Below, one piece after another: positions 12,101-57,348 of a DNA stretch of 64,000 bases. Below the pieces are notes generated by a model. That model had not been told where the DNA came from, did no database searches, and was given only the letters and a program-made list of their open reading frames with translations. The stretch spans positions 1 through 64,000 of the forward strand of contig JAPLLG010000003.1 of the NCBI GenBank assembly GCA_026387665.1. Reading direction: 5' to 3'. The translations under genes were made by a program, and so were the position numbers. The DNA is from Nitrospirota bacterium. GTDB lineage: Bacteria; Nitrospirota; Nitrospiria; Nitrospirales; Nitrospiraceae. How positions within the stretch are numbered: the first letter of the stretch is position 1; each line of letters opens with the position of its first letter.

Positions 12101-12213
12101 CCACAGTCGTGATCGGAGGCCTCTTCACCTCGACGATCTTGACCTTGCTGGTCATCCCGGCTCTCTACGGTCGGATCACTCGCAATGGGTCAGGTGTGAT
12201 GTCAGACGAGTAG
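9124..12213 (+). CDS. czcA: Heavy-metal RND efflux pump, CzcA/CusA type
   Basis: A 1029-residue inner-membrane, proton-driven pump with the RND topology: TM1 near residues 12-32, a large periplasmic loop, TM2-6 (residues about 335-480), a second loop, and TM7-12 ending at 1020. The HME-RND motif is clear at residues 395-409 (DFGLLVDGSVVMVDN). In CzcA the matching acidic residues are Asp402, Asp408 and Glu415; here the third is Asp, a conservative change in the proton path. The start is two bases after the adaptor's stop. Its last 12 bases overlap the convergent radical-SAM gene. The exact metal cannot be read from the sequence; I did not find the methionine pattern that would argue firmly for Cu/Ag. 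Confidence 0.9.
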   Translation: MERLFTLSLRYRFFTLVAMGLVIVIGLWSFMHLTIDAMPDLTPVQVQILTRSPALGPVEVEQFITFPIEASLSGLPALRELRSVSRYGLSVVTAIFDDRTDVYRARQLVSERLTRAMERIPAEYGRPIIGPLTTGLGEVYQFTLKGKGYSPMALRTLLEWEIGMRLRAVPGVVEVNIWGGEPQQFQVVLDPAKLQSFNLSLRQVFEALERNNAIAGGGYIERQREQLLIRGEALATQVSDLARIVVAHGPGGVPIYIADLAEVKEASALRIGAATVMGEGETVIGMVQMLAGENAQQVVELVKTRVKEIEATLPPGVTVEPYYDRTLLVSKVIQTVRNNLFEGGLLVIAVLFLFLGDLRAGVIVASAIPLSMLIAFSGMMQAGLSGNLMSLGAIDFGLLVDGSVVMVDNILRRLAKKGVMSQEERLNEILAAGREVLRPMALAVGIIILVYVPILTLTGIEGKMFRPMALTVILALAGSLLLAVTVTPLLAFWFVRARPGQESTPLIGKLCRVYEPCLRWAMARPALVVTPTVGLFVVSLGLSAWLGIEFVPRLDEGDMAIQLWRLPSASLSESVKGALDVERALRKFPEVVNVVTRTGSPEVATDVMGVELSDVFVILKPQQEWTTAGTREDLIAKMKPAILDAVPGVGLGFTQPIEMRFNELIAGTRSDLAVKIFGPDLEVLKQQAEAVARVLETVRGAADVKVEQVAGLPLLRVIVDREQIARYGLTADEVLTLVQTTRVGHVVGTVVQGPRRFDLVVRLADSASADPASLGNLLLPTAHGELVPLSRVATIRVDTGPAQISREHVQRRIVVENNIRGRDLGSFVAEAQKAVVREISLPTGYELTWGGQFQHLQEATSRLALVVPVTLLLILGVLSVIFGAMRPALLIFLNVPLALSGGIVALWLRGLPLSISAVIGFIALFGIAVLNGVVLVSHIRQLEAEGLPTDQAVMQGSMDRLRPVLMTALVASLGFLPMAVATSMGAEVQRPLATVVIGGLFTSTILTLLVIPALYGRITRNGSGVMSDE

Positions 12214-14388
12214 TAGGCCAGCGGTCCGGACTTTTTCCCAGGAGGCTGTGCCGAGGAAGGCTTCAAACTCTTTTGCTGTCCCTGGAAATGTCGCTCTCTC
12301 TTCCTTGAGCAATGGGTAGGGGCGAGAGGGGTTGTTGTGAGGGGTGGAGCGCCGAATCAGATCCTCAAGCCACTGGGCCTGTTGGGTGGAGAGGGTGAGG
12401 GCCTGATCGCTGGTCCGGCCCGGCAAAATGATCCTCGTTTTTCTTCCAATCGGTTCACAGACCGGTTGGCCTCCTAGCCAGACGAATCGTCGTTCTGCCT
12501 GCGGGTTGTCTTCGATGATTCTGCTCTTGAGGAGCTTTTGTATCCAGGTGGGGGAGACTCGTGGCTTTGGCACGGAATGGTCGAACCATTGGCGCAGGTC
12601 GAGGGTGAGACCGCGTCCTTCCAGATAATTGAGCATCGACCGTCGGAGCCCCTCTCCGAGCCATTCCGGCGTCTTACTCCGTCGATCCTCATGTTGGAGA
12701 TCGTTCTCCGCAAAACCCTGAAACTCCGGTCCGAGAATACGCAGACCATGGGCGGCAGGCTGGAGGCCGATCGGGCTATGGGCCGTGGCGGTAAAGCGAT
12801 GCCAAAAAGCGGACTGAATGAGGCCCGCTTTCACCAACTGCCTCACTCGCTCCAACGAGTCCACCGTTTCCTGAACCGTCTCAGAGGGGCAGCCGTACAT
12901 GAGGTAGGCATGGATGAGTATGCCCGCCTCTTTGAACGAGGTTGCGACTAGCGCGGTCTGATCGACGGTAATGCCTTTTTTGATTTTCTCCAGCAGACGG
13001 TCTGAGGCTGCTTCGAGTCCTGCCGTCACGGCGATGCAGCCTGAGGCGGCCAGGAGACGGCAGAGGTCTGGCGAGAAGGCTTCTTCAAAGCGAATATTGC
13101 CCCACCATGAAATTGTGATGCCCCGTTCCAGCAGCGCCAAGGCCAACGATTTTAAGGCAGCGGGAGGGGCAGCCTCGTCGACGAAGTGGAATCCCCGGCA
13201 GCCTGTCTCGGCAATCAGTTGTTCGATCTGCTGGATGAGCCGGTCGGTCGGCGTCATTTCGTAGCGGCTGATGTAAGTGAGCCCGACGTCACAAAACGTA
13301 CATTGCTTCCAGTAACAGCCATGGGCGACCGTGAGTTTGTTCCAATGACCTTCCGACCAGAGACGATGCATCGGGTTCGTGCTGTCCAGGATCGTGAGGT
13401 ATCGACTCAAGTCCAGGCCACGATAGGTTGGACAGCCGACCTCACCCATGCTGAATTCCGGATCAGATGTCTTATTCGCAAAAATCACGCGATCCTTCTC
13501 CCGATAGAAGGTCCGGCAGAGTTGCTGTCGTGACCTGGCGCCTGCCAGATGTTCGATCAACGACAGCAGCGGCCGTTCCCCGTCGTCGAGCGTGACGTAA
13601 TCGACATAGTCGAACACGCGGGGATCTGACAAACGACGTAGCTCCGTGTTGGCATAGCCTCCGCCCAGGGCAATGGCGAGATTCGGCCTCCGGCTCTTGA
13701 TCGAGTGGGCGATGCGAAAGGCCCCATAGAGGTTTCCGGGAAAGGGGACTGTGAGGGCGATGAGGGTTGGATTGAAACGGTCGAGATGTTGCCATAAGGA
13801 TTCGAGCATGAATCGATCCGTCAGAGTCGGAGGGATGGCGATCGCGTCGATGACGGTCTCGAACGATGAGGCGGCTCTGGCGATATGTTCGGCGTAGCGG
13901 CTCAGGGCAAAATGCGGAGAGACAGTCGCCTGGATCAGATCGGAAAGGTCTTCGAGGTAGAGGGTGGCATATCGTTTGGCGCGATCCTGCTCCGGCAAAG
14001 CTCGCAAAGACGACGTTCGTCCTCGATGGCCGGCGAATCGAGGGCCTTGGGGCAGAAAACCTGGACGGGCCAGGAGTAAGGCCAGAGAAGGATTGCGTCC
14101 CTGGAGGAATTCGATGACCGGTTCGATCGTGTTCAGATAGGCAGGCTCGATCGCGAGCATCTGTCTGGCTTCACCTGGCAGCTCATCCTCACGCTGGCGT
14201 ACCTGATCAAATACCGATTGGAGTCCCGATCGACTGAAGATCCGGAGCACCATGTCGATGCCGAGGTCTGCCTGATCGGCGTCAATCCCGCGGCTGCGGA
14301 GAAACCCCGTGAGATAGGCCGTGGCCGGGTAGGGCGTATTCAGCTGAGTGAGCGGAGGAATGAGCAGGAGAACGTGTGGGCCAGCCAT
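12202..14388 (-). CDS. B12-binding-domain radical SAM protein, unusual cluster motif
   Basis: A 728-residue protein. The N-terminus (HVLLLIPPLTQLNTPYPATA, then FLRSRGIDADQADLGID) and the LALGGGYANTELR region resemble the cobalamin-binding domain of class B radical SAM enzymes. The radical SAM domain starts near residue 350 with GCYWKQCTFCD. Its three cysteines are spaced CX4CX2C instead of the standard CX3CX2C; the DNA reads TGT TAC TGG AAG CAA TGT, so this is not an ORF artefact. Later segments (FVDEAAPPAALK; CIAVTAGLEAASDRLLEKIKKG) fit the Elp3-like barrel. Such proteins often methylate or rearrange unactivated carbons, but the substrate is unknown. The gene is convergent with the czcA-like gene. 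A role in lipid or peptide modification is possible but unsupported here. Confidence 0.8.
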   Translation of the reverse strand: MAGPHVLLLIPPLTQLNTPYPATAYLTGFLRSRGIDADQADLGIDMVLRIFSRSGLQSVFDQVRQREDELPGEARQMLAIEPAYLNTIEPVIEFLQGRNPSLALLLARPGFLPQGPRFAGHRGRTSSLRALPEQDRAKRYATLYLEDLSDLIQATVSPHFALSRYAEHIARAASSFETVIDAIAIPPTLTDRFMLESLWQHLDRFNPTLIALTVPFPGNLYGAFRIAHSIKSRRPNLAIALGGGYANTELRRLSDPRVFDYVDYVTLDDGERPLLSLIEHLAGARSRQQLCRTFYREKDRVIFANKTSDPEFSMGEVGCPTYRGLDLSRYLTILDSTNPMHRLWSEGHWNKLTVAHGCYWKQCTFCDVGLTYISRYEMTPTDRLIQQIEQLIAETGCRGFHFVDEAAPPAALKSLALALLERGITISWWGNIRFEEAFSPDLCRLLAASGCIAVTAGLEAASDRLLEKIKKGITVDQTALVATSFKEAGILIHAYLMYGCPSETVQETVDSLERVRQLVKAGLIQSAFWHRFTATAHSPIGLQPAAHGLRILGPEFQGFAENDLQHEDRRSKTPEWLGEGLRRSMLNYLEGRGLTLDLRQWFDHSVPKPRVSPTWIQKLLKSRIIEDNPQAERRFVWLGGQPVCEPIGRKTRIILPGRTSDQALTLSTQQAQWLEDLIRRSTPHNNPSRPYPLLKEERATFPGTAKEFEAFLGTASWEKVRTAGLLLV

Positions 14389-14463: not shown

Positions 14464-14817
14464 TTATCGCTTCATGTCCAGAATCGTCCCCAGCATGTCG
14501 TCTGCCGTCCTCAGGGTACTGATATTCGCCTCGAATCCACGCTGGGCGATGATCTGGGTGACGGCTTCGTCTGCGAGATTGACGTTCGACAATTCCACCT
14601 GGGTGGGACCATGACCGCGGTCGCTCAGGACGGTCGGGCCGGCGGAGTCGTCTTTCCGAACGACGGGACGCACCCCCCCGTTGCTTCCCTCGACAAGATC
14701 CGTCTGCGATTTTTTGAATCCGTCGGTGTTGACGTTGGCCACATTATGAGCCGAGACCTCGATTTGTTTCGCATAGGCCGCGACTCCGGACAGGGCAGAA
14801 TGCATGGCGGATATCAT
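14464..14817 (-). CDS. Flagellar basal-body rod-like protein, orphan
   Basis: A 117-residue protein with both halves of the FlgB/FlgC family. The N-terminus (MISAMHSALSGVAAYAKQIEVSAHNVANVNTDGFKK) carries the rod ANxNTxG motif, and the C-terminal helix (VNLADEAVTQIIAQRGFEAN then TADDMLGTILDMKR) is the Flg_bbr_C domain. It is shorter than FlgC (about 140-150 residues) and lies alone, with no other flagellar gene in the window. The ATG at 14817 is fixed by a GGAGGT site. It lies about 110 bp downstream of a c-di-GMP-I riboswitch on the same strand, so its expression probably responds to c-di-GMP. It may be a true rod component from a scattered flagellar regulon, or a rod-like protein used elsewhere. 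Confidence 0.8.
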   Translation of the reverse strand: MISAMHSALSGVAAYAKQIEVSAHNVANVNTDGFKKSQTDLVEGSNGGVRPVVRKDDSAGPTVLSDRGHGPTQVELSNVNLADEAVTQIIAQRGFEANISTLRTADDMLGTILDMKR

Positions 14818-14886: not shown

Positions 14887-14928
14887 TAGCCGTACAGTTG
14901 CGCAGTGCAACCGGTCATGTGGCGGCTA
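14887..14928 (-). promoter_or_regulatory. Hairpin between the c-di-GMP riboswitch and the rod-like gene
   Basis: Nested inverted repeats: TAGCCG (14887-14892) pairs with CGGCTA (14923-14928), and GTTGC (14897-14901) with GCAAC (14907-14911). No T-run follows in the direction of transcription, so it is not a classical terminator. It may be part of the riboswitch expression platform. Confidence 0.4.
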
Positions 14929-14929
14929 G

Positions 14930-15015
14930 GCTGACCCTGGAACAACTTCGTTCCTGCTTAGGTCCCTTGGCTTTGCGTCCCACCCTCTCGGATGGTTTGC
15001 CCTTTTCACCTGGCG
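14930..15015 (-). promoter_or_regulatory. Cyclic di-GMP-I (GEMM) riboswitch aptamer
   Basis: On the minus strand the GEMM-I core reads GAAAAGGGCAAACC, then the P2 hairpin CCATCC-GAGA-GGGTGG closed by a GNRA tetraloop, then GGGACGCAAAGCC, then AAGGGACCTAAG with the tetraloop-receptor CCTAA, and a P3-side hairpin GGAAC/GTTCC. The conserved core maps to 14959-15003; the outer limits are approximate. All hallmark bases are present in order. The only gene downstream on this strand within reach is the flagellar-rod-like gene starting at 14817. In this family, c-di-GMP binding alters transcription termination or translation; which direction applies here cannot be read with confidence. Confidence 0.9.
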
Positions 15016-16318: not shown

Positions 16319-16744
16319 TCATTGCTGCCCTGGGATAAACTTCAACGCCACCCCGTTGATGCAGTAGCGCAGCCCCGTCGGCTTGGGTCCGTCCTTGAAG
16401 AGGTGCCCTTGATGTCCTTCGCAGCGGGCGCAGTGGACTTCGGTCCTTGGGAGAATCAATTTGTAATCGGTCGTGGTCTCGATGGCTTCCGGCGCGATCG
16501 GTTGCCAGAAGCTGGGCCAGCCAGTGCCGCTGTCGAACTTATGCTCGGATGAAAACAGCGGCAGATCGCATCCGGCGCAGAAATAGATGCCGGCTGTCTT
16601 GTTGTCGTGAAAGTTGTTGCTGAAGGGCCGCTCGGTGTTTTCATGCCTTAGGACCCGGTAGGCCTCCGGCGCGAGGAGCTTCTTCCAGTCTTCGTCGGTC
16701 TTCACCACTTTGGCAATTGGACCGATGTCAATTTTTTGTGGCAT
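16319..16744 (-). CDS. msrB: Peptide-methionine (R)-S-oxide reductase MsrB
   Basis: A 141-residue repair enzyme that reduces methionine-R-sulfoxide in proteins. The zinc-binding pairs are Cys56/Cys59 (CAGC) and Cys105/Cys108 (CARC); the catalytic Cys128 lies in RYCINGVALKF. Substrate-pocket residues are in GTGWPSFW and HCARCEGHQGHLF. The ATG at 16744 has an AAGGGAG site; the ten-residue extension upstream lacks one. It has no signal peptide and is therefore cytoplasmic. I see no second recycling cysteine near the N-terminus, so it may use thioredoxin directly or a one-Cys mechanism. The acyltransferase-like gene follows in the same operon. Confidence 0.93.
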   Translation of the reverse strand: MPQKIDIGPIAKVVKTDEDWKKLLAPEAYRVLRHENTERPFSNNFHDNKTAGIYFCAGCDLPLFSSEHKFDSGTGWPSFWQPIAPEAIETTTDYKLILPRTEVHCARCEGHQGHLFKDGPKPTGLRYCINGVALKFIPGQQ

Positions 16745-16842
16745 GGGGATTCTCCCTTTCTCGTAGGCCTGCATGGCAAATCAGTCGAATCGCGCGGGCA
16801 ATCCTTACATAAGGCGTTACGGAAGGGCAAGATGAGGATGCG

Positions 16843-17059: not shown

Positions 17060-17305
17060 CTGGGAATGGAGGGAGGAAGGGACCGTGGGTCTCCGCTTCT
17101 CCTATGACGTTCGCGCTGAGCCCCAGCCCCGCACTGGGAGAGAGGGTTTCAGAGATCTATCGTGCTCGCGCAAGTCGCAGGCGGGGCAACCGTCTCTGCG
17201 CTCGCATGGAAAAGGCGGACTAAAACTAGCAGGGTGTTGAGAAACGATTTGGGACTCAAGGAAACGTGGTGTTCAAGTGGTTGCGAACGGTCCCCCCACT
17301 GCCCC

Positions 17306-17431
17306 GCAGGCTGTTCAAAAAGGCTGTCCAGCAAGGCCGCAGCGAGCGAAGGGGCGAAGCGTACTCTCCGCTGTACGTTGAGCTTCTGAGCGACGCGAGA
17401 ACGACGCTGGCGGTCTTTTTCAACAGCCTGC
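17306..17431 (-). repeat. 3'-end near-palindromic element, copy A (diverged)
   Basis: A 126-bp element with termini GCAGGCTGTTCAAAAA (17306-17321) and TTTTTCAACAGCCTGC (17416-17431). The internal blocks CCAGCAAGGCCGCAGCGAG and CGAGAACGACGCTGGCGG are shared with copies B-E at 30425, 34533, 54915 and 57227. It touches the stop codon of the DUF1810 gene and, read on that gene's strand, has the same orientation as the other copies have to their genes. This is the most diverged copy; the central GTAC stem is altered. Confidence 0.85.
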
Positions 17432-17859
17432 TAGTGATGTGCCAGGAGATCAAGGGTCAGTTGGTCGGGCTTGCCGTCGAAGTACTTGAGCAGGGCATCT
17501 TTGAAGACCTTGTTGTCGGTGGTCGCGGTCATGAACAGGGTCATGCAGGACCGGAATTTCAGATGGTCCGGATAGCCGAAGATCTCTTCAGCGCTGCGCC
17601 CTTCCACATCGAGAACAAGCTGTGTGCAGGCTCTGAGCCTTGGACCTAGGATGGGGTGTTCCAGATAGGCCTTGGCCTCATCGAGAGAGGTGATGGCGAA
17701 CTTCTGTGCCGTTCCGCTGTGACCGAGACCTTTGATCTGCGGAAAGATGAACCACATCCAGTGACTGGACTTTCTCCCGGCCCGCAGCTCATCAAGGACT
17801 GCATCATAGACGTGGTCTTGCTCTTCAAGAAAGCGTTGTAGCTTATAATCGTCAGTCAT
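17431..17859 (-). CDS. DUF1810 family protein
   Basis: A 142-residue soluble protein. The family signature is plain: LQRFLEEQDHVYDAVLDELR, then SHWMWFIFPQIKGLGHS, then YLEHPILGPRLRACTQLVL and KFRSCMTLFMTA near the C-terminus. The function of DUF1810 is not established; it has been linked by fold to calpastatin-like or ADP-ribose-related proteins without firm proof. It is a lone gene with palindromic repeats on its 3' side and a repeat-rich gap of about 510 bp on its 5' side. The stop codon is directly against repeat copy A. Confidence 0.88.
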   Translation of the reverse strand: MTDDYKLQRFLEEQDHVYDAVLDELRAGRKSSHWMWFIFPQIKGLGHSGTAQKFAITSLDEAKAYLEHPILGPRLRACTQLVLDVEGRSAEEIFGYPDHLKFRSCMTLFMTATTDNKVFKDALLKYFDGKPDQLTLDLLAHH

Positions 17860-18372
17860 GGCTCTGCCCGCGCCCCTTTGTCTTCTTCCCTGAGACTGCC
17901 ACGCGCCGAGAAAGTCAGAATGTCCCCGTTTTTCTCGCCGCGGGGTAGGGAGTTAGGGGCTGAGGAGCTATTTTTGCTCACGGAGCGCGGCGCCCTAGGA
18001 AGGAATGAGGAAGGAGCGGCCAGGTGCCCTTCTTGCTCGCGGAACCGAGGAGGGAATGGAGCCTGATGATCTTCTGTGCTCGCGCAACGCGCGGCCTCGG
18101 AAGGCCCTCGTTGGACGCGCGCAGTGGAAGATCAATCAGCCCCCCATCCCTAAAGAGATAACAGCAAGGTTGGATGGAGCATGTTTAGCGTTCGACGCGC
18201 GCAATCGAGGATCTACCAGTCTCCCTCTAAAGGAGGTAGAGTGAGTACGAATTCGCAACTAAATTAACTGAAGAGGCTATAGAACCCAGATTTCTGTTAC
18301 ACGCTGCGAAATGCTCTGTTGCAGCCCTCCCCCACGTTTCTATTAGAAATTCAGCCCGTTCCTAATCTGATT
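17860..18372. other. Gene-free stretch between DUF1810 and the defence-like locus
   Basis: No convincing gene is seen. It holds the left copy of the flanking repeat (18013-18123) and a partial third copy of its end (GTTCGACGCGCGCA near 18190). The rest has mixed composition with no clear hairpin terminator for the gene ending at 18373. The DUF1810 promoter must lie near its right edge relative to 17859. Confidence 0.5.
18013..18123 (+). repeat. Left inverted repeat flanking the Avs-like locus
   Basis: Two blocks are shared, in the opposite strand sense, with 25753-25906. Block 1 (18013-18051) starts GGAGCGGCCAGGTGCCC and includes TTGCTCGC. Block 2 (18076-18123) starts GTGCTCGCGCAACGCGCGG and ends CTCGTTGGACGCGCGCA; 43 of 48 bases match the right copy. 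The spacing between blocks is 24 bp here against 67 bp on the right. The inverted pair encloses about 7.6 kb with the STAND gene and its partner. It may be a general intergenic repeat rather than a true island end. Confidence 0.75.
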
Positions 18373-19137
18373 TTATTTTCGTGCCTTCTTTTTCTTCCCT
18401 GATACTTGAGCTTGCGGAACTTCCTTTCGCAACTCAGAGACCACTGCCATAGCCATCTTCACGAATGACTCTAGTTTATCGATGCGATCCTCGATGCGCT
18501 TCCTTTCTATCTTGCTCGGGTCAGATGCTTGCAATTCAGCGTCCTCTTGAATAATGACGCGAACTAGAGGGAATTCGGCGCTTTCGTCAACACCAGCGGC
18601 GCTAGCAAGGGCGACCCACTCCACGGACTTATTGAGCGAATTTTGTGCGGCCTGTGTTAGGCAATAGCGAATGAGTATTTTTGCCGAATAGTCCAAGCCA
18701 TCAATAAGCTTTAACCAGGATTTCGTTTCGCTATTGTCTTCAGCATTTTCAGCAGCAGCTCTTACCGAGCTAAAATATCTTGATGTGGTGTTTTCAGGGT
18801 CGAGGCTCGCAAGAGTTCTTAGCAGTGGTTCGATTTCCTCAAATGGACGTTTGCCATCTTGCAAGCTGTGCCGATGCTTCCAAAGGTTTAAGATTGCGTC
18901 ACAACAGACTCGCATCTTCTCTGGTCGCTCCTCAGCGCTGGCTTTCTCCGCATCCTGAATTAGCTCCGCAATGTAATGAGCCATCCATCGGCCGAGAGTA
19001 TCCACAGACTGATCGATGCCAAGCTCATTCGTCAGTTTTCTGCCAAGTTGAACCGTCGCTTCACAGCGATCTAATAGTACCGTCGACCTTGATGAGGAAG
19101 AGCCGTGTGCTTCGCGGGATATATCTGGTGTCGTCAT
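18373..19137 (-). CDS. Unknown partner protein of the Avs-like STAND NTPase
   Basis: A 254-residue protein that I do not recognise. The start at 19137 is chosen because GGAG lies five bases before it and the next ATG upstream (19140) is too close to that site. The gene begins 77 bp inside the end of the STAND gene in another frame, so translation is probably coupled. It is predicted soluble and mainly helical. An acidic middle (DAEKASAEERPEKMRVCCDA; AAENAEDNSETKSWLKLIDG) is followed by a charged coiled-coil-like segment (RKRIEDRIDKLESFVKMAMA) and a lysine-rich tail (SGKKKKARK). There is no catalytic motif, signal peptide or membrane span. It could be an accessory, regulatory or immunity factor for the large protein; the link rests on overlap only. 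Confidence 0.75.
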   Translation of the reverse strand: MTTPDISREAHGSSSSRSTVLLDRCEATVQLGRKLTNELGIDQSVDTLGRWMAHYIAELIQDAEKASAEERPEKMRVCCDAILNLWKHRHSLQDGKRPFEEIEPLLRTLASLDPENTTSRYFSSVRAAAENAEDNSETKSWLKLIDGLDYSAKILIRYCLTQAAQNSLNKSVEWVALASAAGVDESAEFPLVRVIIQEDAELQASDPSKIERKRIEDRIDKLESFVKMAMAVVSELRKEVPQAQVSGKKKKARK

Positions 19138-22100
19138 CATTACTCCTTTCCCATCGGGTATATGGCCGGCGACGTTCAATCTCTACTGAGACGATCAGAT
19201 CCATTCTCAGATGCGACAGGAGCGCTACAGTGAATCCACGAGATGCTTGAAAACGAGATCCGCTTTCGTGACTCGTTTCTTCATCGTCTTTTTCCTGGAA
19301 CTGCCCCCAAGTTAACGACCACGCTACATCAGTGCATTCACCCTGGATGAACCATCGCCGACGCTCCGTGTCAGAGTTAAGTTTCATAAGGCGCAAGACA
19401 TAATCGGCAGGTTCAGGAGGGGGATATCTGATATCTCCAGCCCATGTGTCTCGTTCATCTATCCCCCGGTCGCGGGATCGGTCCACAATCCATCCCTTTA
19501 GCTGAAACCCATCCTCATCGATTTGCAGTTCATCCTCGGCGTCAGGAATTCGATAGTCATGTGGATTGCCCGCGTTCTGTAAGGCCCTCAGTAAAGCTGC
19601 AGAGCGATTAGGCGAAACCAGCGCGCTGCAAACGCTAATGGATTCTTCTCGACGTTCCGACCTCCATATCCAATGGCCCCAAAGATTCATCCGACCGTCA
19701 GGCGTGATAAGAATTCGATCAAAGTCTTTCCTCGCGATCGACCAACGCCATTCCTCCGTGTCCTTCGTATCCTTCCACTCTGGCCTTTCAAGTGGCGTCG
19801 GATCGCGACGGTCTGCTAGCCATCCCCCGTCCAGACGAGAAAGATCATGGCGTGCGATCCAATTCTGAAACTCATCTTTCGACTCGTCGGGGTCATGATG
19901 TACGGGCGTTGTTGCTAGGAGTGTTCCTGCTACCACCATCATCGCATGGTAGGAATGATAGAAGCGCAGGTCGTCTACACGTGGATATGAGCCGTGAGAG
20001 TGATAGGCCTCCATATCTCTAAAAATTTTGCGCCGGTGGCGCTCATCTTCATCCCAGCGATTCCCCCCAGATATCTGCCAATCGCTTCTAATTACGCGTA
20101 ATGCTTCACGTTCGATACTGGTTTGCGACTTGGCAAAACAGCTTCCAAGAGAAGCAAACCAGTACGGCCCCATGTCGATACCGAAATAGAACCGATCTTC
20201 CTTGCCTTCGGTATCGTTCTTATCTTTGTCATTGGTTTCCTCGATTTCATGGCGACGATAAGATTTCGATTGGACAGCCGAAAACAGTGATGTGTTGATG
20301 GCCGACAGGCGCCGACGCAGGTCAGTCTGCGATGTCAAGAATCCGGCATCCAACAAAGTAAGGAGGGTCCTCTTGGTAAACTCCTGAATGAGGACGTGAG
20401 GTTCATTGGCGAACACTAGCTCGATCAAAAAGTCAGCATGTGGGGCGACAAGATCCGGACGATCTTTTACGGCGCGGGTCAATCCGATGAGCAACCATTG
20501 CCGTGCGTGCAGTTTATAGAAATGCAATCGGGCGTCATGAAAGGCGTCGGGTGATGCTCCCTTCGCCAGAGTGATGAGATGCTCGAGTACGTTCGCTTGT
20601 CCTAACGTGCAAAGTGCTCGGACTACATGTGCAGCTTCCCAGCGCAAACTTGCCCGCGGAGCTGCGAGGCAGCCCCAGATATAGCCAGCTACTGAGCCTT
20701 CAATCTCGCTGGGAGGCTCAAGTCTGGGTGCCCACGGCCCATCGCCATCTGTGTCCTCTAGAGCGGGGGCAAATAGATCAAGCCCGAACGAAAGGGCCTC
20801 CGACGCTTCATTTTCAGCCAGTTTTGAGGCAAGAAGTCCCACCAGCGTGAACAAGCGGCTCGCATCAGCGATTTCGGCTGTTTCTCCTATGGCGAGAAGA
20901 ACCACATCGACCACGTCCCCTTCAGGAATTCCAGATAGCTCGCAGGCAGTTTTGAAAGGAAGCATCTCATAGTACCGGCTCTTCGTAATGGCCATGCAGA
21001 ATCGTCGGCAAAATGTCCTCAGGGTCTGGGCAAGGGCCGCTTTGACTGCGAGCCGGCCTCTCCAGTTCTCGGGGAGCTGTTCAAGAATGTTACGGAAATG
21101 AAAGAGGTCGAAATTGGCTACATTCGCAACAGCAGCGATGAATTCGACCTCTTTGCCAACATGCACTCGGCGGCACGCTTCTTTAAAGAAATTCTCATGG
21201 TAGTACGGTGGGTCTAAGTCCTTGAATCGCTGATAGGCCTGGGAAATACCATTGACGGTGCTTAGATCAACACCCTCAAAGATTGCGTTCCAATCGCGCT
21301 CATCTTTACTTCCTTGACCTATGTGGTAACCGTTCTCTGTCAATTTCCTGGATTGTTCCTCGCGCTCACTCAAAGCGATTCTAGCATCAAGGTCAGGGAG
21401 TGTAATGCCGTGCCCGGTTAAGACCTTCTTGAGCTCGCGCCATGTTCCAACACTCTGTTGGTCCAGTGTCATGTAACGGTAGGCGAGCCCAGTCGCCGTC
21501 TCCTTTTCAGTCTTGTTTGCGCAGGTCGCCAGGACATTTTTGAGCAAGAGTGGCTCATTCCAGTCCACACGGAAGGTTATCAATGCCAGTGCAATATTTG
21601 GGTCGAGGTCGCCACGTGAGAGAAGGAAGTTGACCGCGATTGGCAATATTCGTCCCGCCCACCCGAAACCTCGGTCCCGCCAACGACTGAGGATCGCCAG
21701 AGAGGACTTTCCGCATAGACAGGAAATCGCCTCGACAGTGGCTTCCCAGTCAAAATGTTTGTCACGATCGACATAGTCGTAAGTCAGTTCGGCACAACGA
21801 GCGAGTCGATATGCCAAAATTGGCTTCGAGGTATTTCGAGAGGCAGCACGATCGGCCAAGTCCAAAAGTGCCCCCCACCGCTCTAAATTTTCGTCACCGA
21901 TCTTGCTTGCGACTTCCACGGCTTGATTAAAATAAGCAGCGGCTTCTGACCGGCTTACCGTCAAGATTGCTCTGGACAGCTCGACATAGCTGCCCGACTT
22001 CGACTCTGCATCTTCGCGCGCACCTTGGATTAGGCCGAAGGCCTTCCCAGCATAGTCGAGCGCGCGCGCTTCCAGCGAGGGGGATCGGGCTGCCAATCGT

Positions 22101-25100
22101 GCCAGGTGTGTGAGCGTCTTCGTGAACAATGGCCGCTTAAGGCTGCTGATCCACTGCTCGAATTCATCGACCGATGTAGCATCAACGCTATTCGCGGTCA
22201 GCAAGGTATCAAACCAGACTCGAGCAATTTCATCGGATGTTTCCGACTGCTCCCGGTAGCTGATCCCTTCTGCCTTCTCATACGAGGCCTTCCGTTCGGC
22301 GATAGCATCTGCAAGTTCCGTAGGCGACATCCGACCGACCAAGGTTGCTGCCCATAAACAGTGCCAGGGTAAGAGAGCTCCGATATCTTCTTTGAAGTTC
22401 CGGGCATCCTGAGAATCTGAGTGCGACTTTTGGGTTCCCAGTTCTTTTCGGAGCTCGTCATGCGCTAAATCGATCAATTGTATTGATTGTCTGCCAAGTT
22501 CTGCTCGCAGTGCGAACGCACGAAGTAGCGGAAACCGCTGCTGGCCATGTCGAGACGAGAGACCTCGTGGAGGTGACGCGGGCAAATAGCGTGTCAGAAG
22601 TGCGATCAGCTCGTCGGTTGTGCCAATCGATAGCTTATGTGCAGCTTCTACCAGTGCGGTCACTGCCCGGATAACGTTTTCCTCACTATTCCAGCCACCA
22701 CTGTCCTTTAGCCTGATGCGTGGATTCATGACCAAGCGGAGAGCACGTTCCACAACTCTCTTGGGAGGTGCTCTATGGACCACATGTAATTCCAATGTAA
22801 TCGCAAGTACAAGAAACAGGTCGTTCTTAGCGGCTAGCGCCAGCTCATCGAGGTCCTGATATCGGCCATGATCAATAAACCGGCTGGCCAAAGTTCGTCC
22901 GACGCGAAACGAGACCTCACGGGGCCGCCATATTCGGAGATCGCGGGCACAGCTACTAGCGCCATGAATGTTGAAAAAGGCGGTCGCCATCTCAAGGATG
23001 TCGTTATCAGATAATTCCTCTTTTTGTCGCTCCTCTTTTGAAAGCCTGCTCCAGTTTCGTAGCCATTCGCGGGCCATCCGCAATCTAGACCGTGCGTCAC
23101 CCAACAGTTCGCTCCGTCCGGACAGCAGCCCAGCTTCATAGGCGTGGTGGGAACCAACCCAACCCGAACCAAATGTCTTTCGCGAAACGAGTTCGTGAAT
23201 TCGGTCACTCTCCATGAAGACCGCAGCCAAGTCTGTATTCGCTTGAAGAAGCTTGCGCTGCCGTTCATCACCGGCACTTTCGCCGCCAGCCTTCAGTGCT
23301 AGCTTAGCTGCATCAGTGTAGCGCTTCGCCCGCAAGCTTGCCTTGAGGGCAAATTGAAGCCGCTGAAGTTCAACATCTCGCCTCTCAACGGGGCTGGTGC
23401 TCGGTAGGGCTTGGGAAGACAGCGCGAGCGCCACAAGCTCCGTGAATTGCCCCGCCTCCAGCATGAGTTGCGGTAAAGTGGATGCCACATATGAACTGGT
23501 TGAGGCGAGTGGTTTCAGGGTCGCCACAAAAGCCACAAGATCGCCTGTGGTGGGCTTGAACTTATCTCTGAACCACGTCTCGGCGGGCTCATCAAAGAAT
23601 TGGATCGTGTCACCCGTGACAAGGAGTGGACGCCCGAGATCGAATGCGAAACTCTTGATCGCAGCCTCATGGACCCCCGAGATTGAGGCTAGAACAGACA
23701 AAGGAATCAAAGGCCGGAGCGCGGCCAAGCCAGCGCAGATTCTGTTTATTTGTGTCTTCTCGACAGTCCCTACCGCGTCGCGCAGTTTTGCAACGGAAGC
23801 ATTGAGGAGATTTCCGATCGTGTCTTCGACTGTAGTCGGATTAGGACCGAGAGCGCGGAGAGTATCGTTTAACAGGGCTTTCCACGAAAGCGCCAGCGCT
23901 TGAACGCGAGGGTTTTGAGAACTCAAACGATGGAATTCGTCGACATCTTGTTCGGAGGCGTCGATGAAAGCCTGCCGCAAAAGTGTCGCAGTTTCGATGC
24001 GACTGAAAGGGTGAAGTTCAAGCCGTAGTGCGTCAGGCGGAGGATCAAGATATTCCTGCCGATGGGTTCTGCACAGTGCGACCAAACGCACCCCCTCTGG
24101 CATTTGCTCTCGGAGCAAGTCACGCACGAAAGATCGCACTTCGCCGAATTCTTCTGCCGCCATCTGAGCATTATCCGCGGCGTCGATTATGATGGACAGA
24201 AGAGCTTGCGGGTTCTTTGATCTAAGCGAGGCGATGCTTTGCTTTAGACGATAAATGAAAGCTCTCACGTAGTCCGACGGTTCGGCATGAGGGGTGGGAA
24301 TGAGGAGGTGGCATAGCCCTTTGGCGGCCAGTTCGTTTGCGATTTGAACCAGAGCATCCTTGTGGCGATGCCGATAGCCGCTGGGATTACGGTACTGACC
24401 ATTGCCAAAGCAGTCATAAAGAACGCTTGATGAGCCAATGGGCAATCCCGATTTGATACGTGTTGCAAAAACCGATTTCCCAACCCCACCGGCAGCGTGA
24501 ACGATGATGGGAATACCACTCGCTTGCAGGATCGCTTGGAGAAGCTCTGATTCCTGCTCACGCGGCACCGCCTTTTCGAGATCTCTGATAAGGCATGGAG
24601 TAGGAAATAGGCGCTTCTCCTCGGTCTTGAGCGCCCGAAGCACATCCAATCTGGTGATCGACGGATTATTGGCACTTCTGGAGAGCGCCTTCTGGGTCAC
24701 CAATTCCTTCAGTTGAACGGGAGCGTCCACGTCCGCATCGACGAGGTAGCAGCTGATATCTTGGGCCAGTAGGTTCTGTTGATCCCACAGCCCTTCCTGA
24801 CTTCCTTCAAGTCGAAGAAGCTTGCAAAAGGATGCGAGTGCTGTGCCACTGAGGCATGTGAACCGCTCAAGCTTCTGGAGATTTTTGACGTGTCGTGCCG
24901 GAATACCTCCAGCGGCGTCATATATAGCCTCTAGAAATTCGGTATTGATCGGCCGATTCGAAACGAACCAAAACTCCAACTTGCCATTCAGGTCTATTGT
25001 ATTAGGGTGCTCTTGAAGTGCCTTGTACCGTTCAGCAAATCCCGTTAACGTTTTCTCCAACCCGCTCGGTGTCCACGCCTCATTCGCCCTCAGTGTTGAA

Positions 25101-25354
25101 TGCTTAAGCTGGATGTAGCGGATCAGTGTTGCTCGTTCACGATGCTCACTCCCGTAATACTCACCGACGTCAATTAGCTCTTCGCCGGTTGTGATGCGAT
25201 CTTCCGCCGCTTCCTCAGATGGCGATGCGCCCTCGATCGTAATCGCTTTCAAGCTGGCAACGGGCGAAAGGAGAAGCAGGCAACGGCGGGCGGCCCACCA
25301 ATAGTGGAACTGATCACCGTCTCGGCTTGGACCGACTAGATTAATTTTGGCCAT
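19061..25354 (-). CDS. Avs-like STAND NTPase with N-terminal PD-(D/E)XK (Cap4-like) nuclease domain
   Basis: A 2097-residue protein. Residues about 10-150 look like a Cap4/DUF4297-type nuclease: GDQFHYWWAARR, Glu41, Asp62 in EELIDVGEYYG and Gln82-x-Lys84 in YIQLKHS. A STAND NTPase follows, with Walker A HAAGGVGKS (Lys293), Walker B SIIIDAADN (Asp391) and an arginine-bearing sensor LCRTHR (428-432), then a helical arm LHPFSRIETATLLRQAF. The remaining roughly 1550 residues are helix-rich and repeat-like, as in the TPR-like sensors of antiviral STAND (Avs) proteins, ending in a less helical conserved region. In that family the sensor binds a phage protein such as terminase or portal, the ATPase tetramerises and the nuclease cuts DNA. 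At 2097 residues it is at the large end. GC looks lower than in the flanks. The class is confident; the Avs subtype and phage target are unknown. Confidence 0.85.
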   Translation of the reverse strand: MAKINLVGPSRDGDQFHYWWAARRCLLLLSPVASLKAITIEGASPSEEAAEDRITTGEELIDVGEYYGSEHRERATLIRYIQLKHSTLRANEAWTPSGLEKTLTGFAERYKALQEHPNTIDLNGKLEFWFVSNRPINTEFLEAIYDAAGGIPARHVKNLQKLERFTCLSGTALASFCKLLRLEGSQEGLWDQQNLLAQDISCYLVDADVDAPVQLKELVTQKALSRSANNPSITRLDVLRALKTEEKRLFPTPCLIRDLEKAVPREQESELLQAILQASGIPIIVHAAGGVGKSVFATRIKSGLPIGSSSVLYDCFGNGQYRNPSGYRHRHKDALVQIANELAAKGLCHLLIPTPHAEPSDYVRAFIYRLKQSIASLRSKNPQALLSIIIDAADNAQMAAEEFGEVRSFVRDLLREQMPEGVRLVALCRTHRQEYLDPPPDALRLELHPFSRIETATLLRQAFIDASEQDVDEFHRLSSQNPRVQALALSWKALLNDTLRALGPNPTTVEDTIGNLLNASVAKLRDAVGTVEKTQINRICAGLAALRPLIPLSVLASISGVHEAAIKSFAFDLGRPLLVTGDTIQFFDEPAETWFRDKFKPTTGDLVAFVATLKPLASTSSYVASTLPQLMLEAGQFTELVALALSSQALPSTSPVERRDVELQRLQFALKASLRAKRYTDAAKLALKAGGESAGDERQRKLLQANTDLAAVFMESDRIHELVSRKTFGSGWVGSHHAYEAGLLSGRSELLGDARSRLRMAREWLRNWSRLSKEERQKEELSDNDILEMATAFFNIHGASSCARDLRIWRPREVSFRVGRTLASRFIDHGRYQDLDELALAAKNDLFLVLAITLELHVVHRAPPKRVVERALRLVMNPRIRLKDSGGWNSEENVIRAVTALVEAAHKLSIGTTDELIALLTRYLPASPPRGLSSRHGQQRFPLLRAFALRAELGRQSIQLIDLAHDELRKELGTQKSHSDSQDARNFKEDIGALLPWHCLWAATLVGRMSPTELADAIAERKASYEKAEGISYREQSETSDEIARVWFDTLLTANSVDATSVDEFEQWISSLKRPLFTKTLTHLARLAARSPSLEARALDYAGKAFGLIQGAREDAESKSGSYVELSRAILTVSRSEAAAYFNQAVEVASKIGDENLERWGALLDLADRAASRNTSKPILAYRLARCAELTYDYVDRDKHFDWEATVEAISCLCGKSSLAILSRWRDRGFGWAGRILPIAVNFLLSRGDLDPNIALALITFRVDWNEPLLLKNVLATCANKTEKETATGLAYRYMTLDQQSVGTWRELKKVLTGHGITLPDLDARIALSEREEQSRKLTENGYHIGQGSKDERDWNAIFEGVDLSTVNGISQAYQRFKDLDPPYYHENFFKEACRRVHVGKEVEFIAAVANVANFDLFHFRNILEQLPENWRGRLAVKAALAQTLRTFCRRFCMAITKSRYYEMLPFKTACELSGIPEGDVVDVVLLAIGETAEIADASRLFTLVGLLASKLAENEASEALSFGLDLFAPALEDTDGDGPWAPRLEPPSEIEGSVAGYIWGCLAAPRASLRWEAAHVVRALCTLGQANVLEHLITLAKGASPDAFHDARLHFYKLHARQWLLIGLTRAVKDRPDLVAPHADFLIELVFANEPHVLIQEFTKRTLLTLLDAGFLTSQTDLRRRLSAINTSLFSAVQSKSYRRHEIEETNDKDKNDTEGKEDRFYFGIDMGPYWFASLGSCFAKSQTSIEREALRVIRSDWQISGGNRWDEDERHRRKIFRDMEAYHSHGSYPRVDDLRFYHSYHAMMVVAGTLLATTPVHHDPDESKDEFQNWIARHDLSRLDGGWLADRRDPTPLERPEWKDTKDTEEWRWSIARKDFDRILITPDGRMNLWGHWIWRSERREESISVCSALVSPNRSAALLRALQNAGNPHDYRIPDAEDELQIDEDGFQLKGWIVDRSRDRGIDERDTWAGDIRYPPPEPADYVLRLMKLNSDTERRRWFIQGECTDVAWSLTWGQFQEKDDEETSHESGSRFQASRGFTVALLSHLRMDLIVSVEIERRRPYTRWERSNDDDTRYIPRSTRLFLIKVDGTIRSL

Positions 25355-25752
25355 CTGAAGTCACTCTTCTCACAAGTAGTACCACCCGCGTGATATTTAT
25401 CTACCAATCTGTAACGCATAACGATTAAAGACCCGCCGAGGCATCGCTGTCTTCTGGCGGCCGATCTCGTGTGGGTGCTCATCCAGAAATTCGAACAAGC
25501 TACCGGAATGTCCGTTGCTGGGAAAGGGGGCAGAAGCCTTTTATAATACGCCTTTGTGACGGTCGCGCGACCGAAGCGTGGGGGCATTGTAAGAAGGTTA
25601 GAGGAAAAGACGCAAGGGTTGCTATGGTTGCATGTCAATACATTAGAAAATTTACGGGGCAAATTTCCCTCAGCGAGCACAAAGTACAGTTAGCCTCTTC
25701 CTTTCTCTACTCCCTACCGGTATTGGAAGGGCGGCCTAGCGGGCTCCCATCG
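25355..25752. other. Gene-free stretch upstream of the Avs-like gene
   Basis: No convincing gene is seen. It is more AT-rich than the flanks. A TATAAT-like sequence lies at 25542-25547 and TTGACA occurs on the minus strand at 25638-25633, but neither has a well-spaced partner. The promoter of the Avs-like gene should be here; it cannot be fixed by eye. Confidence 0.45.
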
Positions 25753-25906
25753 TGCGCGCGTCCAACGAGGGGAGTCCGCGACCGCGCGTTGCGCGAGCAC
25801 AGGGAATTACCAGGCCGGTATTCTCTGTCCTTTCCCCCAACCATATAAAGGGGAGTGGCCAAGGTTGTCCTCTGTTCTGCGAGCAAGGTGGGCACCTGGC
25901 CGCTCC
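25753..25906 (-). repeat. Right inverted repeat flanking the Avs-like locus
   Basis: The reverse-complement counterpart of 18013-18123. On the minus strand, block 1 (25906-25868) reads GGAGCGGCCAGGTGCCCACC with TTGCTCGC, and block 2 (25800-25753) reads GTGCTCGCGCAACGCGCGG and ends CTCGTTGGACGCGCGCA. A 67-bp spacer holds an extra segment not present on the left. Between this copy and lon there is only the lon terminator. Confidence 0.75.
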
Positions 25907-26008: not shown

Positions 26009-28405
26009 TTAGGACGCAGTCGAGGTGGCGAGCGGTTCGTCCCGCTCTGCTCTCGCGGATGCCGGTGTATCCTGGTTGAATGCGGCCGGGAGCACTTCTT
26101 CGATCCGCTCGGCCAGGATGAAGGTCAGCTCATTCCGCACTTCCTGCGGGACCTCTTTCAGGTCCTTCTCGTTCGCCTTTGGCAGGATGATGCGTCGGAT
26201 GCCGGCGCGATGCGCGGCCAGCACCTTTTCTTTGATCCCGCCGACCGGTAATACCAGCCCGCTCAGGCTGATTTCGCCGGTCATGGCGGTATCGCTCCGC
26301 ACCGCTTTCCCGCTATAGGACGATGCGAGCGCGGTGGCCATGGTGATACCGGCCGATGGTCCGTCTTTCGGGATGGCACCGGATGGCACATGGATATGCA
26401 ACCCATTCCGTTTGAAGCGGGAAATATCGAGCCCCATGCTTTCCGCGTGCGACCAGAGGTAGCTTCGCGCAGCCCTGGCAGACTCCTGCATGACGTCTCC
26501 CAACTGACCGGTGATTGTCAGTTCGTGGCTGCCGGGGAGCAGGGTGGTTTCGATATAGAGCACATCCCCGCCACTTGGGGTCCAGGCGAGCCCTGTGGCC
26601 ACGCCAGGAGGCAAGACTTTGCGTGCCTCCTCCGGCATGAAGCGCTCGGAGCCGAGCCAGTCTTCGAGGACCTCGGCATGGATGGTGACGGGCTGCCGCT
26701 CCTGGCCCTCCGGAAGTTCCGCGAAAGTCAGGGCGACTTTTCTGGTCAGCCGTCCCAGCATCTGTTCCAGTTGCCGTACGCCCGCTTCCCGCGTGTAGCG
26801 GCTGATGACGAGATTCAATACCTCATCCGACAGCAGCGCTTGGCTTGCGTCGAGACCTGCTTCTTTGAGCCGTCTCGGCCACAAGTAGCGGCGGGCGATC
26901 TCTGCTTTTTCCCCTTCGCTATAGCCTTGCAGGCGAATGATTTCCATACGGTCCAACAGGGGTTGGCTGATCGTATCCAGCGTGTTGGCGGTCGTGATGA
27001 AGAAGACCTTCGACAGATCGAACGGAAGATCCAGATAGTGGTCGCGGAACGTGTGGTTCTGCGCCGGATCCAGGATCTCTAAGAGGGCCGAAGCCGGATC
27101 GCCACGGAAGTCGCGGCCCATCTTGTCGACCTCGTCCAACATCAAGACGGGATTATTCACGTTGGCGCGACGCATGGCCTGAATGATCCGTCCAGGCAGG
27201 GCTCCGACGTAGGTCCGGCGGTGACCGCGCAATTCCGCTTCATCATGCACGCCTCCCAGGCTCAACCGTTCGAAGGTCCGTCCCATGGATCTGGCAATCG
27301 ACTGGCCCAGGCTGGTCTTGCCGACGCCAGGAGGTCCGAGCAGGCAGAGGATGGGCGCCTTGGCTGTGGGATTTAGTTTCAGCACTGCCAGATGTTCGAC
27401 GATCCGTTCCTTCACTTCTTTGATGCCGTAGTGGTCCTCTTCCAGCACCTGGCGAACCTTGCTCAACTCCAGCCGGTCTTCCGAGGATTTCTTCCAGGGG
27501 AGCTCCAGTACCAACTCAAGATACGTCCTCAGGACCTGATGCTCAGGCGAGGAGGGCGGTACTTTCGCTAACTTGGCAATCTCCCGCTCCACTTCCTTGC
27601 GCACAGAATCCGGAAGCTCGGCTTCTTGAATCTTCTTTTTGAGCTCGGTGATCTCGCTCTCTTCTCCCTTGCCCTCACCCAGTTCCTCTTGAATCGCCTT
27701 CAATTGTTCACGGAGGACATATTCTCGCTGGGTCTTGCCGATCTTGGCTGAAGCCTCGCTGGTGATTTTATCTCGCAACTGTAGTATCTGGATTTCTTTC
27801 GAGAGCGCGCCGTAGAGCGATCGCAGCAGTTCGATTGTGGAGGAACTTTCGAGCAGTTTTTGCTCGTCCTGCACCGTGAGATTGAGGAGCGAGGCCACGC
27901 GATAGGCCAAGGAGACGGGATTGTCCTCGTTACTGAAGGCCGCTGCTGCTTCCTGAATGCCGGGGGCCTGAATTAATCGAGGTAGATCTGTGACCAACCC
28001 CTGGATGGCTCGGTGGAGGGCTTGGACTTCTGTGCCCTCGTCCGCCGGACTATCGAGTCGCCTGGCTTCGACGAGAAGAAACGGCTTTGTCTGTTCGACT
28101 TTGAGTAGCGCAACCCGTTCGAGTCCCTGCACGAGCGCATGGATCGTGCCGTCCTCCGACCGCCCAACCTGTTTCACGATGGCCTTGGTGCCGATTGTAT
28201 AGAGCTCTTCGAGCCCCGGCTCATCCGTTTGGGGGTCGCGTTGCGCGACCACCAGAATCATCTTCTCTTCTGTTTTCATCGCCGCCTCTACGGCAGCGAC
28301 CGATCGTGCACGTCCGACGGTCAAGGGCATCATGACCCCGGGAAATAGCACGGTGCGCTTAATCGGGAGGACCGGTAGTTTTATGGCGAGAGTCTCGATA
28401 TTCAT
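26009..28405 (-). CDS. lon: ATP-dependent protease La (Lon)
   Basis: A 798-residue cytosolic AAA+ serine protease that degrades misfolded and regulatory proteins. The domain order is standard: an N-terminal LON substrate domain (LPVLPIKRTVLFPGVMMPL), a coiled coil (about residues 200-290), the AAA+ module with Walker A GPPGVGKTSL (Lys363) and Walker B NPVLMLDEVDK, then the protease domain with catalytic Ser684 in KDGPSAGITM and a lysine in LPVGGIKEKVLAAHRAG. The length matches typical LonA (about 780-820). It is a single gene ending at a strong hairpin. It lies next to the defence-like island; I infer no functional link. Confidence 0.97.
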   Translation of the reverse strand: MNIETLAIKLPVLPIKRTVLFPGVMMPLTVGRARSVAAVEAAMKTEEKMILVVAQRDPQTDEPGLEELYTIGTKAIVKQVGRSEDGTIHALVQGLERVALLKVEQTKPFLLVEARRLDSPADEGTEVQALHRAIQGLVTDLPRLIQAPGIQEAAAAFSNEDNPVSLAYRVASLLNLTVQDEQKLLESSSTIELLRSLYGALSKEIQILQLRDKITSEASAKIGKTQREYVLREQLKAIQEELGEGKGEESEITELKKKIQEAELPDSVRKEVEREIAKLAKVPPSSPEHQVLRTYLELVLELPWKKSSEDRLELSKVRQVLEEDHYGIKEVKERIVEHLAVLKLNPTAKAPILCLLGPPGVGKTSLGQSIARSMGRTFERLSLGGVHDEAELRGHRRTYVGALPGRIIQAMRRANVNNPVLMLDEVDKMGRDFRGDPASALLEILDPAQNHTFRDHYLDLPFDLSKVFFITTANTLDTISQPLLDRMEIIRLQGYSEGEKAEIARRYLWPRRLKEAGLDASQALLSDEVLNLVISRYTREAGVRQLEQMLGRLTRKVALTFAELPEGQERQPVTIHAEVLEDWLGSERFMPEEARKVLPPGVATGLAWTPSGGDVLYIETTLLPGSHELTITGQLGDVMQESARAARSYLWSHAESMGLDISRFKRNGLHIHVPSGAIPKDGPSAGITMATALASSYSGKAVRSDTAMTGEISLSGLVLPVGGIKEKVLAAHRAGIRRIILPKANEKDLKEVPQEVRNELTFILAERIEEVLPAAFNQDTPASARAERDEPLATSTAS

Positions 28406-29882: not shown

Positions 29883-30422
29883 ATGAATTATTGCAGCGTG
29901 TGCGCCACGCCTGTCACCCAGCAAATTCCCGCCGGCGATAATCGTCTGCGGTTTGTCTGCGGCTCCTGCCAGACTATTCATTACCATAATCCGAAAATCG
30001 TCGCAGGCTGCATTCCGGAATGGGATGGACAAATTCTTCTTTGTCGGCGCGCCATCGAGCCCAAGTCCGGTCTCTGGACCTTTCCTGCCGGTTTTATGGA
30101 GATCGGCGAAAGCACCGAGCAGGCAGCCGTTCGCGAGACCTTCGAGGAGGCGCAGGCTCAGGTGGAGCGGATCTGCCTGTTTGCGGTCTTGAGTTTGCCG
30201 CACATCGGTCAGGCCTACCTGGTATTCCGCGGGCCGATGCACTCGCCGGACTTCGGGGTCGGTGAGGAAAGCCTTGAGGTGCAGCTCTTCTCCCTCTCTG
30301 CCATTCCCTGGGACGAGATCGCCTTTCCCGTGGTCAAGGACGTGTTGCGCCGTTATGTCGAGGATGTGGCGCGGGGCGAGTTTCAGGTGCATGTCGCGAC
30401 ATTGTCTGATCGATTGATCTAA
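29883..30422 (+). CDS. NUDIX hydrolase with N-terminal zinc ribbon
   Basis: A 179-residue protein. ATG 29883 gives MNYCSVCATPV; the frame is open upstream but that part has no conserved motif. Cysteines 4 and 7 with the later CGSCQ form a zinc ribbon of the Nudix_N_2 type. The Nudix box is GFMEIGESTEQAAVRETFEE then AQ; the last glycine of the consensus is replaced. Family members hydrolyse NADH, ADP-ribose or related dinucleotides, and the zinc-ribbon group is often annotated as ADP-ribose/NADH pyrophosphatase-like. It is followed two bases after its stop by repeat copy B. The substrate is unproven. Confidence 0.85.
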   Translation: MNYCSVCATPVTQQIPAGDNRLRFVCGSCQTIHYHNPKIVAGCIPEWDGQILLCRRAIEPKSGLWTFPAGFMEIGESTEQAAVRETFEEAQAQVERICLFAVLSLPHIGQAYLVFRGPMHSPDFGVGEESLEVQLFSLSAIPWDEIAFPVVKDVLRRYVEDVARGEFQVHVATLSDRLI

Positions 30423-30424
30423 CC

Positions 30425-30543
30425 GGATGCTGAAAAAGTCCGCCAGCGGCGTTCTCGCTTCACGAAGAGGCTCAACGTACCGCAAGGGTACGCCTCGCCT
30501 CTTCGCTCGCTGCGGCCTTGCTGGACGGACTTTTTGAGCATCC
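30425..30543 (+). repeat. 3'-end near-palindromic element, copy B
   Basis: A 119-bp element beginning GGATGCTGAAAAAGTCC and ending GACTTTTTGAGCATCC. The arms include CGCCAGCG with GTTCTCGC on the left and GCTCGCTGCGGCCTTGCTGG on the right, with a central GTACCG/GGGTAC stem. It starts two bases after the NUDIX stop codon. Confidence 0.9.
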
Positions 30544-30640
30544 TGAGGGTATTCTCACCCTAACACCTTACGGAATATTTTGGCCATGCTTTCCGTATTA
30601 ACTGAGTTTTCCCGCAGTCTGCCAGGGGCGGCCCCTTCCA

Positions 30641-33818: not shown

Positions 33819-34528
33819 AAGTCGTTCTGGACATTGAAACGGTTCAAGCGCCTCGGGAGGAATGGGCTCGTCTCGCGGGCAAACTGCCAGCCAGCGACGA
33901 ATCTGCGCCGGCAGAGGGCTATGATTTGTTTGCGGCAGGGGCAGCCGATGAGCAGCGACGAGTCGAGGATGAACAGTATGCGAAGTCCTCGTTCGACGGC
34001 ACGTTCAGCCGGATCGTCTGTATCGGCCTCTTGGAGTTCTCCGACCAGCTGGAGCCTCGCGGTGCCGTGGCCTGGTATGGCGGAAATGAGCGGGAGTTGC
34101 TGCAACAATTCTGGAACCGTTTGGCGCAGAGCCGCCCGTCGCTCTTTATCACCCATAACGGTTTGGGTTTCGACCTGCCGTTCATTAAGAAGCGATCGAT
34201 TATCCATCAGGTCAAGCCGAGCCTGGATATCAACCTTGCCAAATTCCGCACGGAACCGGTCTACGATACGATGGCGGTCTGGAGCAATTGGGATACGCGG
34301 GGCTGGGTGAAGCTCGATGTGCTGGCGCGGGCGTTGAACGTCGAAACCAAATCGGGGAGCGGATCGCAGGTGGCTGAGATGTGGGAGAAGGGGCAGGGAG
34401 CCGAGTTGGCTCGGTACTGTCTACAAGATACCTATGTGACCTACGCCTGTTACTCGCGGATGACTTTTCGGCAGCCTCTGTCTAGCGATGTCATGTTGCT
34501 CCATCCGGAGTTGCTGGACGTCGGCTGA
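33815..34528 (+). CDS. Predicted 3'-5' exonuclease (PolB-like, DEDD superfamily)
   Basis: A 237-residue RNase H-fold protein with the DEDD residues visible: Asp and Glu in VVLDIETVQ, Asp in THNGLGFDLPFIKKR and Asp in YCLQDTYVTY with tyrosine four residues earlier (DEDDy). It matches proteins annotated as predicted 3'-5' exonuclease related to PolB. It overlaps mutT by four bases (ATGA), so it is coupled with the mutY/mutT repair genes and may trim ends or act in proofreading. No polymerase domain is attached. Repeat copy C follows four bases after the stop. Confidence 0.85.
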   Translation: MKVVLDIETVQAPREEWARLAGKLPASDESAPAEGYDLFAAGAADEQRRVEDEQYAKSSFDGTFSRIVCIGLLEFSDQLEPRGAVAWYGGNERELLQQFWNRLAQSRPSLFITHNGLGFDLPFIKKRSIIHQVKPSLDINLAKFRTEPVYDTMAVWSNWDTRGWVKLDVLARALNVETKSGSGSQVAEMWEKGQGAELARYCLQDTYVTYACYSRMTFRQPLSSDVMLLHPELLDVG

Positions 34529-34532
34529 GCAG

Positions 34533-34658
34533 GCAGGATGCTGAAAAAATCCGCCAGCGTCGTTCTCGCATCGTTCAGGCCCTCAACGTACCCTCCAGGG
34601 TACGCCTCGGTCCTTCACTCGCTGCGGCCTTGCTGGACAGACTTTTTGAGCATCCTGC
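34533..34658 (+). repeat. 3'-end near-palindromic element, copy C
   Basis: A 126-bp element with termini GCAGGATGCTGAAAAAATCC and GACTTTTTGAGCATCCTGC. It contains CGCCAGCGTCGTTCTCGCAT and, on the right, CTCGCTGCGGCCTTGCTGG, with a central GTACCC-TCCA-GGGTAC hairpin. It begins four bases after the exonuclease stop codon. Confidence 0.92.
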
Positions 34659-34703
34659 GATCCTCGAAGAAGGCCCCGTTCGATATAGCAGGGCTCCGTC
34701 TGG

Positions 34704-54891: not shown

Positions 54892-54914
54892 GCCCGTCTA
54901 TACTGCGTCACTTG

Positions 54915-55040
54915 GCAGGATGCTGAAAAAGTCCGCCAGCGTCGTTCTCGCATCGTTCAGGCCCTCAACGTACCCTAACGGGTACGCCTCGGCCCTTCAC
55001 TCGCTGCGGCCTTGCTGGACGAACTTTTTGAGCATCCTGC
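54915..55040 (+). repeat. 3'-end near-palindromic element, copy D (inside the trp operon)
   Basis: A 126-bp element with termini GCAGGATGCTGAAAAAGTCC and GAACTTTTTGAGCATCCTGC and a central GTACCC-TAAC-GGGTAC hairpin. The internal blocks match copies B, C and E. It lies between trpF and trpB, so if it stops transcription even partly it would split the operon into trpEGDCF and trpBA. Confidence 0.93.
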
Positions 55041-55115
55041 GAGACAGGTTCATTTGTTCTAGATGTGTACGGTCGAAGTTCTGCTGCGCCATAGAGGTTT
55101 TTCACAGCCTACTAA

Positions 55116-57142: not shown

Positions 57143-57226
57143 GTTTCTGGCTCAACCAGCCTCTCATTCCAATCAAGATCACTTTTCACTCATCAGCAGT
57201 TTCTGCATTTGCCGGGATAGTTTGCA

Positions 57227-57346: not shown

Positions 57347-57348
57347 GA

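Follow-up and report, generated by a model that had tools for sequence, protein, structure and literature searches.

The Avs proteins Avs1 to Avs4 recognise the large terminase, the portal or the phage protein Ksap1, and cut both phage and host genomes (PMC12931631). The closest described system to the one reported here is SeAvs3 of Salmonella enterica, whose N-terminus is a PD-(D/E)xK nuclease and in which binding of the target to the sensor leads to tetramerisation, pairing the N-terminal nucleases and switching on DNA cleavage (PMC11291478). Within the window, by which we mean the whole stretch of 64,000 nucleotides that was analysed, we find a locus that, judged by its sequence, is a complete Avs3 (AVAST type 3) two-gene operon, a kind of system that has already been characterised. 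Its features are collected in Table 1.

Table 1. Positions in the window of the avs3 genes, the regions of the Avs3a protein and the flanking repeat arms.
Feature	Position	Strand	Description
avs3a	19061..25354	-	2097-aa Cap4-type nuclease / STAND (NACHT) ATPase / helical sensor
Cap4-type PD-(D/E)XK nuclease domain, residues about 1-180 (E41, D62, Q82, K84)	24815..25354, edge approximate	-	55% identity to SeAvs3
STAND/NACHT ATPase region, residues about 256-600 (GGVGKS, IIIDAADN, CRTHR)	23555..24589, edge approximate	-	PF05729; 64% identity to SeAvs3
Helical sensor region, residues about 601-2097	19064..23554	-	Collinear alignment to SeAvs3 890-1379 and 1378-2081
avs3b	18373..19140	-	255-aa protein, predicted all-helical
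Left flanking repeat arm	18013..18123	+	Inverted repeats I1 and I2; belongs to an intergenic repeat family dispersed in the genome
Right flanking repeat arm	25753..25906	-	Inverted relative to the left arm

The larger gene, avs3a, appears in the ORF listing as an uninterrupted frame of 2097 codons with an ATG start, and the first-pass annotation had reported a single 2097-residue protein with exactly these ends, leaving only its strand unstated. The product matches the NCBIfam equivalog model for Avs3a, NF041816, at 3224.6 bits (curated cut-off 2800 bits), with residues 7-2097 aligned to profile positions 1-2083 of 2083, and because of this match the frame cannot reasonably be taken for a chance ORF. 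The Avs3a model of PADLOC, PDLC02167, is likewise matched over its full length (3095.2 bits, residues 1-2097, profile positions 1-2090 of 2090), while a phmmer search of the PDB returned a single strong match, to SeAvs3 (8dgc_A, 2164 bits, residues 6-2097). The Pfam search placed NACHT (PF05729) at residues 284-465 with 27.2 bits against a cut-off of 26.7, and gave no model covering the sensor. We assign the protein to Avs3a, a known subtype and not a novel Avs clade. Its size had been described as lying at the upper end, yet the Avs3a models of NCBIfam and PADLOC span 2083 and 2090 positions and SeAvs3 has 2092 residues, so by family lengths 2097 residues is normal for Avs3a. An upstream ORF with a GTG start (25336-25680, minus strand) is without a family match and was dismissed as a chance frame.

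In outline, the architecture first proposed for this protein is borne out. The protein is a STAND NTPase of the Avs type that carries a Cap4/PD-(D/E)XK nuclease at its N-terminus and has a long helical sensor; Glu41, Asp62, Gln82-x-Lys84, GGVGKS, IIIDAADN and CRTHR each occur where they had been described and are aligned in Avs3a relatives. All 17 of the aligned Avs3a proteins, SeAvs3 among them, share the four nuclease residues E41, D62, Q82 and K84; GGVGKS (residues 289-294), IIIDAADN and CRTHR align with the same positions in the 16 other proteins, and both Walker A (GGVGKS) and Walker B (IIIDAADN) are intact. Against a SeAvs3 sequence (PDB 8DGC) that was assembled from printed alignments and may lack a few residues at the joins, the window Avs3a is 49% identical over 2068 aligned residues, with 55% (1-180), 56% (181-255) and 64% (256-600) in the N-terminal part and 51% (601-1000), 37% (1001-1400), 42% (1401-1700) and 47% (1701-2097) in the sensor. 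The sensor had been thought to resemble no named subtype. When its later parts were searched separately against the PDB, they matched 8dgc_A only (E 1.1e-106 and 2e-194), and the whole sensor aligns collinearly with that of SeAvs3, nearly without gaps from end to end. At the level of sequence, then, the two sensors are homologous over their full length.

The second gene, avs3b, overlaps the 3' end of avs3a by 80 nt and was absent from the first-pass annotation. Its product matches NF041817 at 297.4 bits (cut-off 200) and also PADLOC PDLC02168. The ORF list gives this frame as 18373-19179 from a TTG, and the likely start is the ATG at 19140, as indicated by the match to the family and by a preceding AAAGGAG that resembles a ribosome-binding site. 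A homologue of Avs3b lies downstream of avs3a in all 17 of the 17 relatives whose contig extends that far, and from this strict linkage we infer that Avs3b is an accessory or partner protein. Neither a phmmer search of the PDB nor a Pfam search gave a match for it. The AlphaFold model, built from 12 sequences, is all-helical, with a mean pLDDT of 71.5 and a pTM of 0.55; a structural lead from this model was dropped, the best Foldseek match in the PDB having an E value of 0.67 and a TM-score of 0.16. In Caenimonas koreensis, the gene directly downstream of avs3b (L016:16983-18884) matches the PADLOC candidate defence model PDC-S39 at 749.5 bits.

The nearest relatives of the window Avs3a are found in Candidatus Nitrotoga (L013), a Desulfuromonadales MAG (L009), Gelria (L015) and a Pelosinus fragment (L018), which belong to other phyla and offer other genomic settings; their proteins are 70-81% identical to that of the window, with the reservation that the closest copies are mostly metagenome bins or fragments and that some of the phylum assignments may reflect misbinning. 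Where the contig reaches the second gene (L013 and L015), Avs3b is 61-69% identical to the window protein, and the loci of L009 and L018 end at contig ends. A tree of 17 Avs3a proteins groups the window copy with those of the Desulfuromonadales MAG and Candidatus Nitrotoga (support 1.0), so that it is nested inside Avs3a amid sequences of other phyla. Among the 61 genomes searched, Avs3a occurs only in the window's own and is absent from the 60 relatives. The GC3 of avs3a is 0.54 and that of avs3b 0.48, compared to 0.66-0.74 in seven other genes of the window. Taken together, the closest copies at 70-81% in other phyla, the absence from 60 relatives and the low GC3 indicate that the avs3 operon was horizontally acquired. 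Carriage on a prophage was considered and rejected: the phage collection that was searched holds no Avs3 relative, and the host genome has no match to Terminase_6N, the one terminase family searched for.

The operon is located between lon (26009-28405) and the DUF1810 and msrB genes (17431-17859 and 16319-16774). In two genomes of the same genus, L048 and L049, lon lies almost next to msrB and the junction is empty, and in three others the interval is occupied by different genes: a defence reverse transcriptase of the UG5 type with a nitrilase in L044 (5200-10700), an HTH/M78 peptidase gene with matches to RmrA models together with a PIN-domain gene in L045 (3400-7300), and a 713-aa SEC-C protein in L043 (8000-11600). 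The lon-msrB junction is thus variable, and at least two sister genomes carry defence-like genes there; in this genus it looks like a defence hotspot. L044 also carries, downstream of its intact lon, a duplicate of the final 62 lon codons (9700-9885, 90% identical), which adjoins the reverse transcriptase cassette. This duplicate of the lon 3' end is possibly a trace of integration or recombination.

The repeat arms that flank the operon were considered as the terminal inverted repeats of a transposon, a reading that we rejected, because the arms belong to a repeat family found throughout the genome and are therefore not the unique ends of an element. The host genome contains at least 46 partial matches to this family, and a copy also lies directly downstream of lon, in the same place, in L042 and L043 of the same genus. 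A broader proposal, to which we give somewhat less than even weight, is that lon-msrB is a defence hotspot not described before, where dispersed intergenic repeats help to exchange defence cassettes. Another repeat family, with units of about 130 nt, is present in five copies in the 64 kb (17299-17434, 30410-30549, 34521-34660, 54903-55047 and 57224-57353); it is palindromic and MITE-like, with the ends GGATGCTGAAAAAGTCCG...GGACTTTTTGAGCATCC and a strong hairpin (z -6.05). Elsewhere in the window, a c-di-GMP-I-GGC riboswitch (14917-15010, minus strand, 64 bits) lies upstream of two genes, one for a 117-aa flagellar-rod-like protein (14464-14817) and one for a radical SAM protein of the B12 type (12202-14388). 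This riboswitch and the kinship with the Desulfuromonadales MAG copy hint only weakly, as a guess, at a deltaproteobacterial host.

In order to describe how the window Avs3a may work, we take its trigger, tetramer and nuclease activation over from SeAvs3 by analogy, and a SeAvs3-like mechanism is the best inference because E41, D62, Q82, K84, GGVGKS and IIIDAADN are intact. According to work on SeAvs3, Avs3 is said to sense the large terminase specifically. By that analogy, Avs3a would remain idle until a phage protein produced during infection, which would be the large terminase subunit, binds to its long helical sensor. After sensing, the ATP-bound STAND domains would tetramerise, and the tetramer would join the N-terminal Cap4-type nucleases into active dimers, which would then cleave phage and host DNA and cause the infection to be aborted.

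The trigger of Avs3a could nevertheless differ from that of SeAvs3, given the identity of 49% overall and 37% over residues 1001-1400, and the host genome, searched for Terminase_6N, yields no match that would hint at a target. One way to read the locus is that the protein is an Avs3a orthologue by descent whose diverged sensor recognises another phage protein, either the portal or something new. That residues 1001-1400 are the least conserved part of the sensor, at 37% identity to SeAvs3 where the STAND region reaches 64%, would fit such a change, as would the fact that Avs proteins collectively recognise several targets (PMC12931631), but the sensor aligns along its whole length with that of SeAvs3, collinearly and nearly gap-free, and the Avs3a equivalog cut-off is exceeded by a wide margin, and we regard a different trigger as unlikely. 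A far less probable reading, which had been raised at the outset, is that of a novel clade or subtype of Avs whose sensor is unrelated: the one point in its favour is that Pfam has no model for the sensor, and it is contradicted by full-length Avs3a matches in two curated libraries, by homology to SeAvs3 from end to end and by the position of the protein inside the Avs3a tree. Nor do we give appreciable weight to a non-defence STAND regulator, MalT-like or similar, which would have the STAND ATPase core in common with Avs3a; here an intact nuclease active site stands in place of a DNA-binding domain, the avs3b partner is present, and the junction is variable and holds defence cargo in relatives. 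We are highly confident that the locus is a complete, horizontally acquired avs3a-avs3b operon, and that Avs3a is most likely a terminase-sensing, tetramerising nuclease.

The locus contributes a complete Avs3 operon from a host lineage distant from the Enterobacteria, in which the system was characterised, and its nearest relatives, at 70-81% identity and spread across several phyla with some assignments perhaps misbinned, point to long-distance spread. The lon-msrB junction, with its changing cargo that includes defence genes, could be mined in the genus. The same gene order is annotated on the 10.4-kb plasmid pKPN692_2 of Klebsiella variicola (NZ_CP089387.1), where avs3a and avs3b overlap as they do in the window and where Avs3a is 49% identical to the window protein and 92% identical to SeAvs3. 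Compared to SeAvs3 itself, the window Avs3a has the same order of nuclease, STAND and sensor regions, the same catalytic residues and nearly the same length (2097 compared to 2092 aa), whereas about half of the residues differ, chiefly in the sensor at 1001-1400, and the two proteins come from different host lineages.
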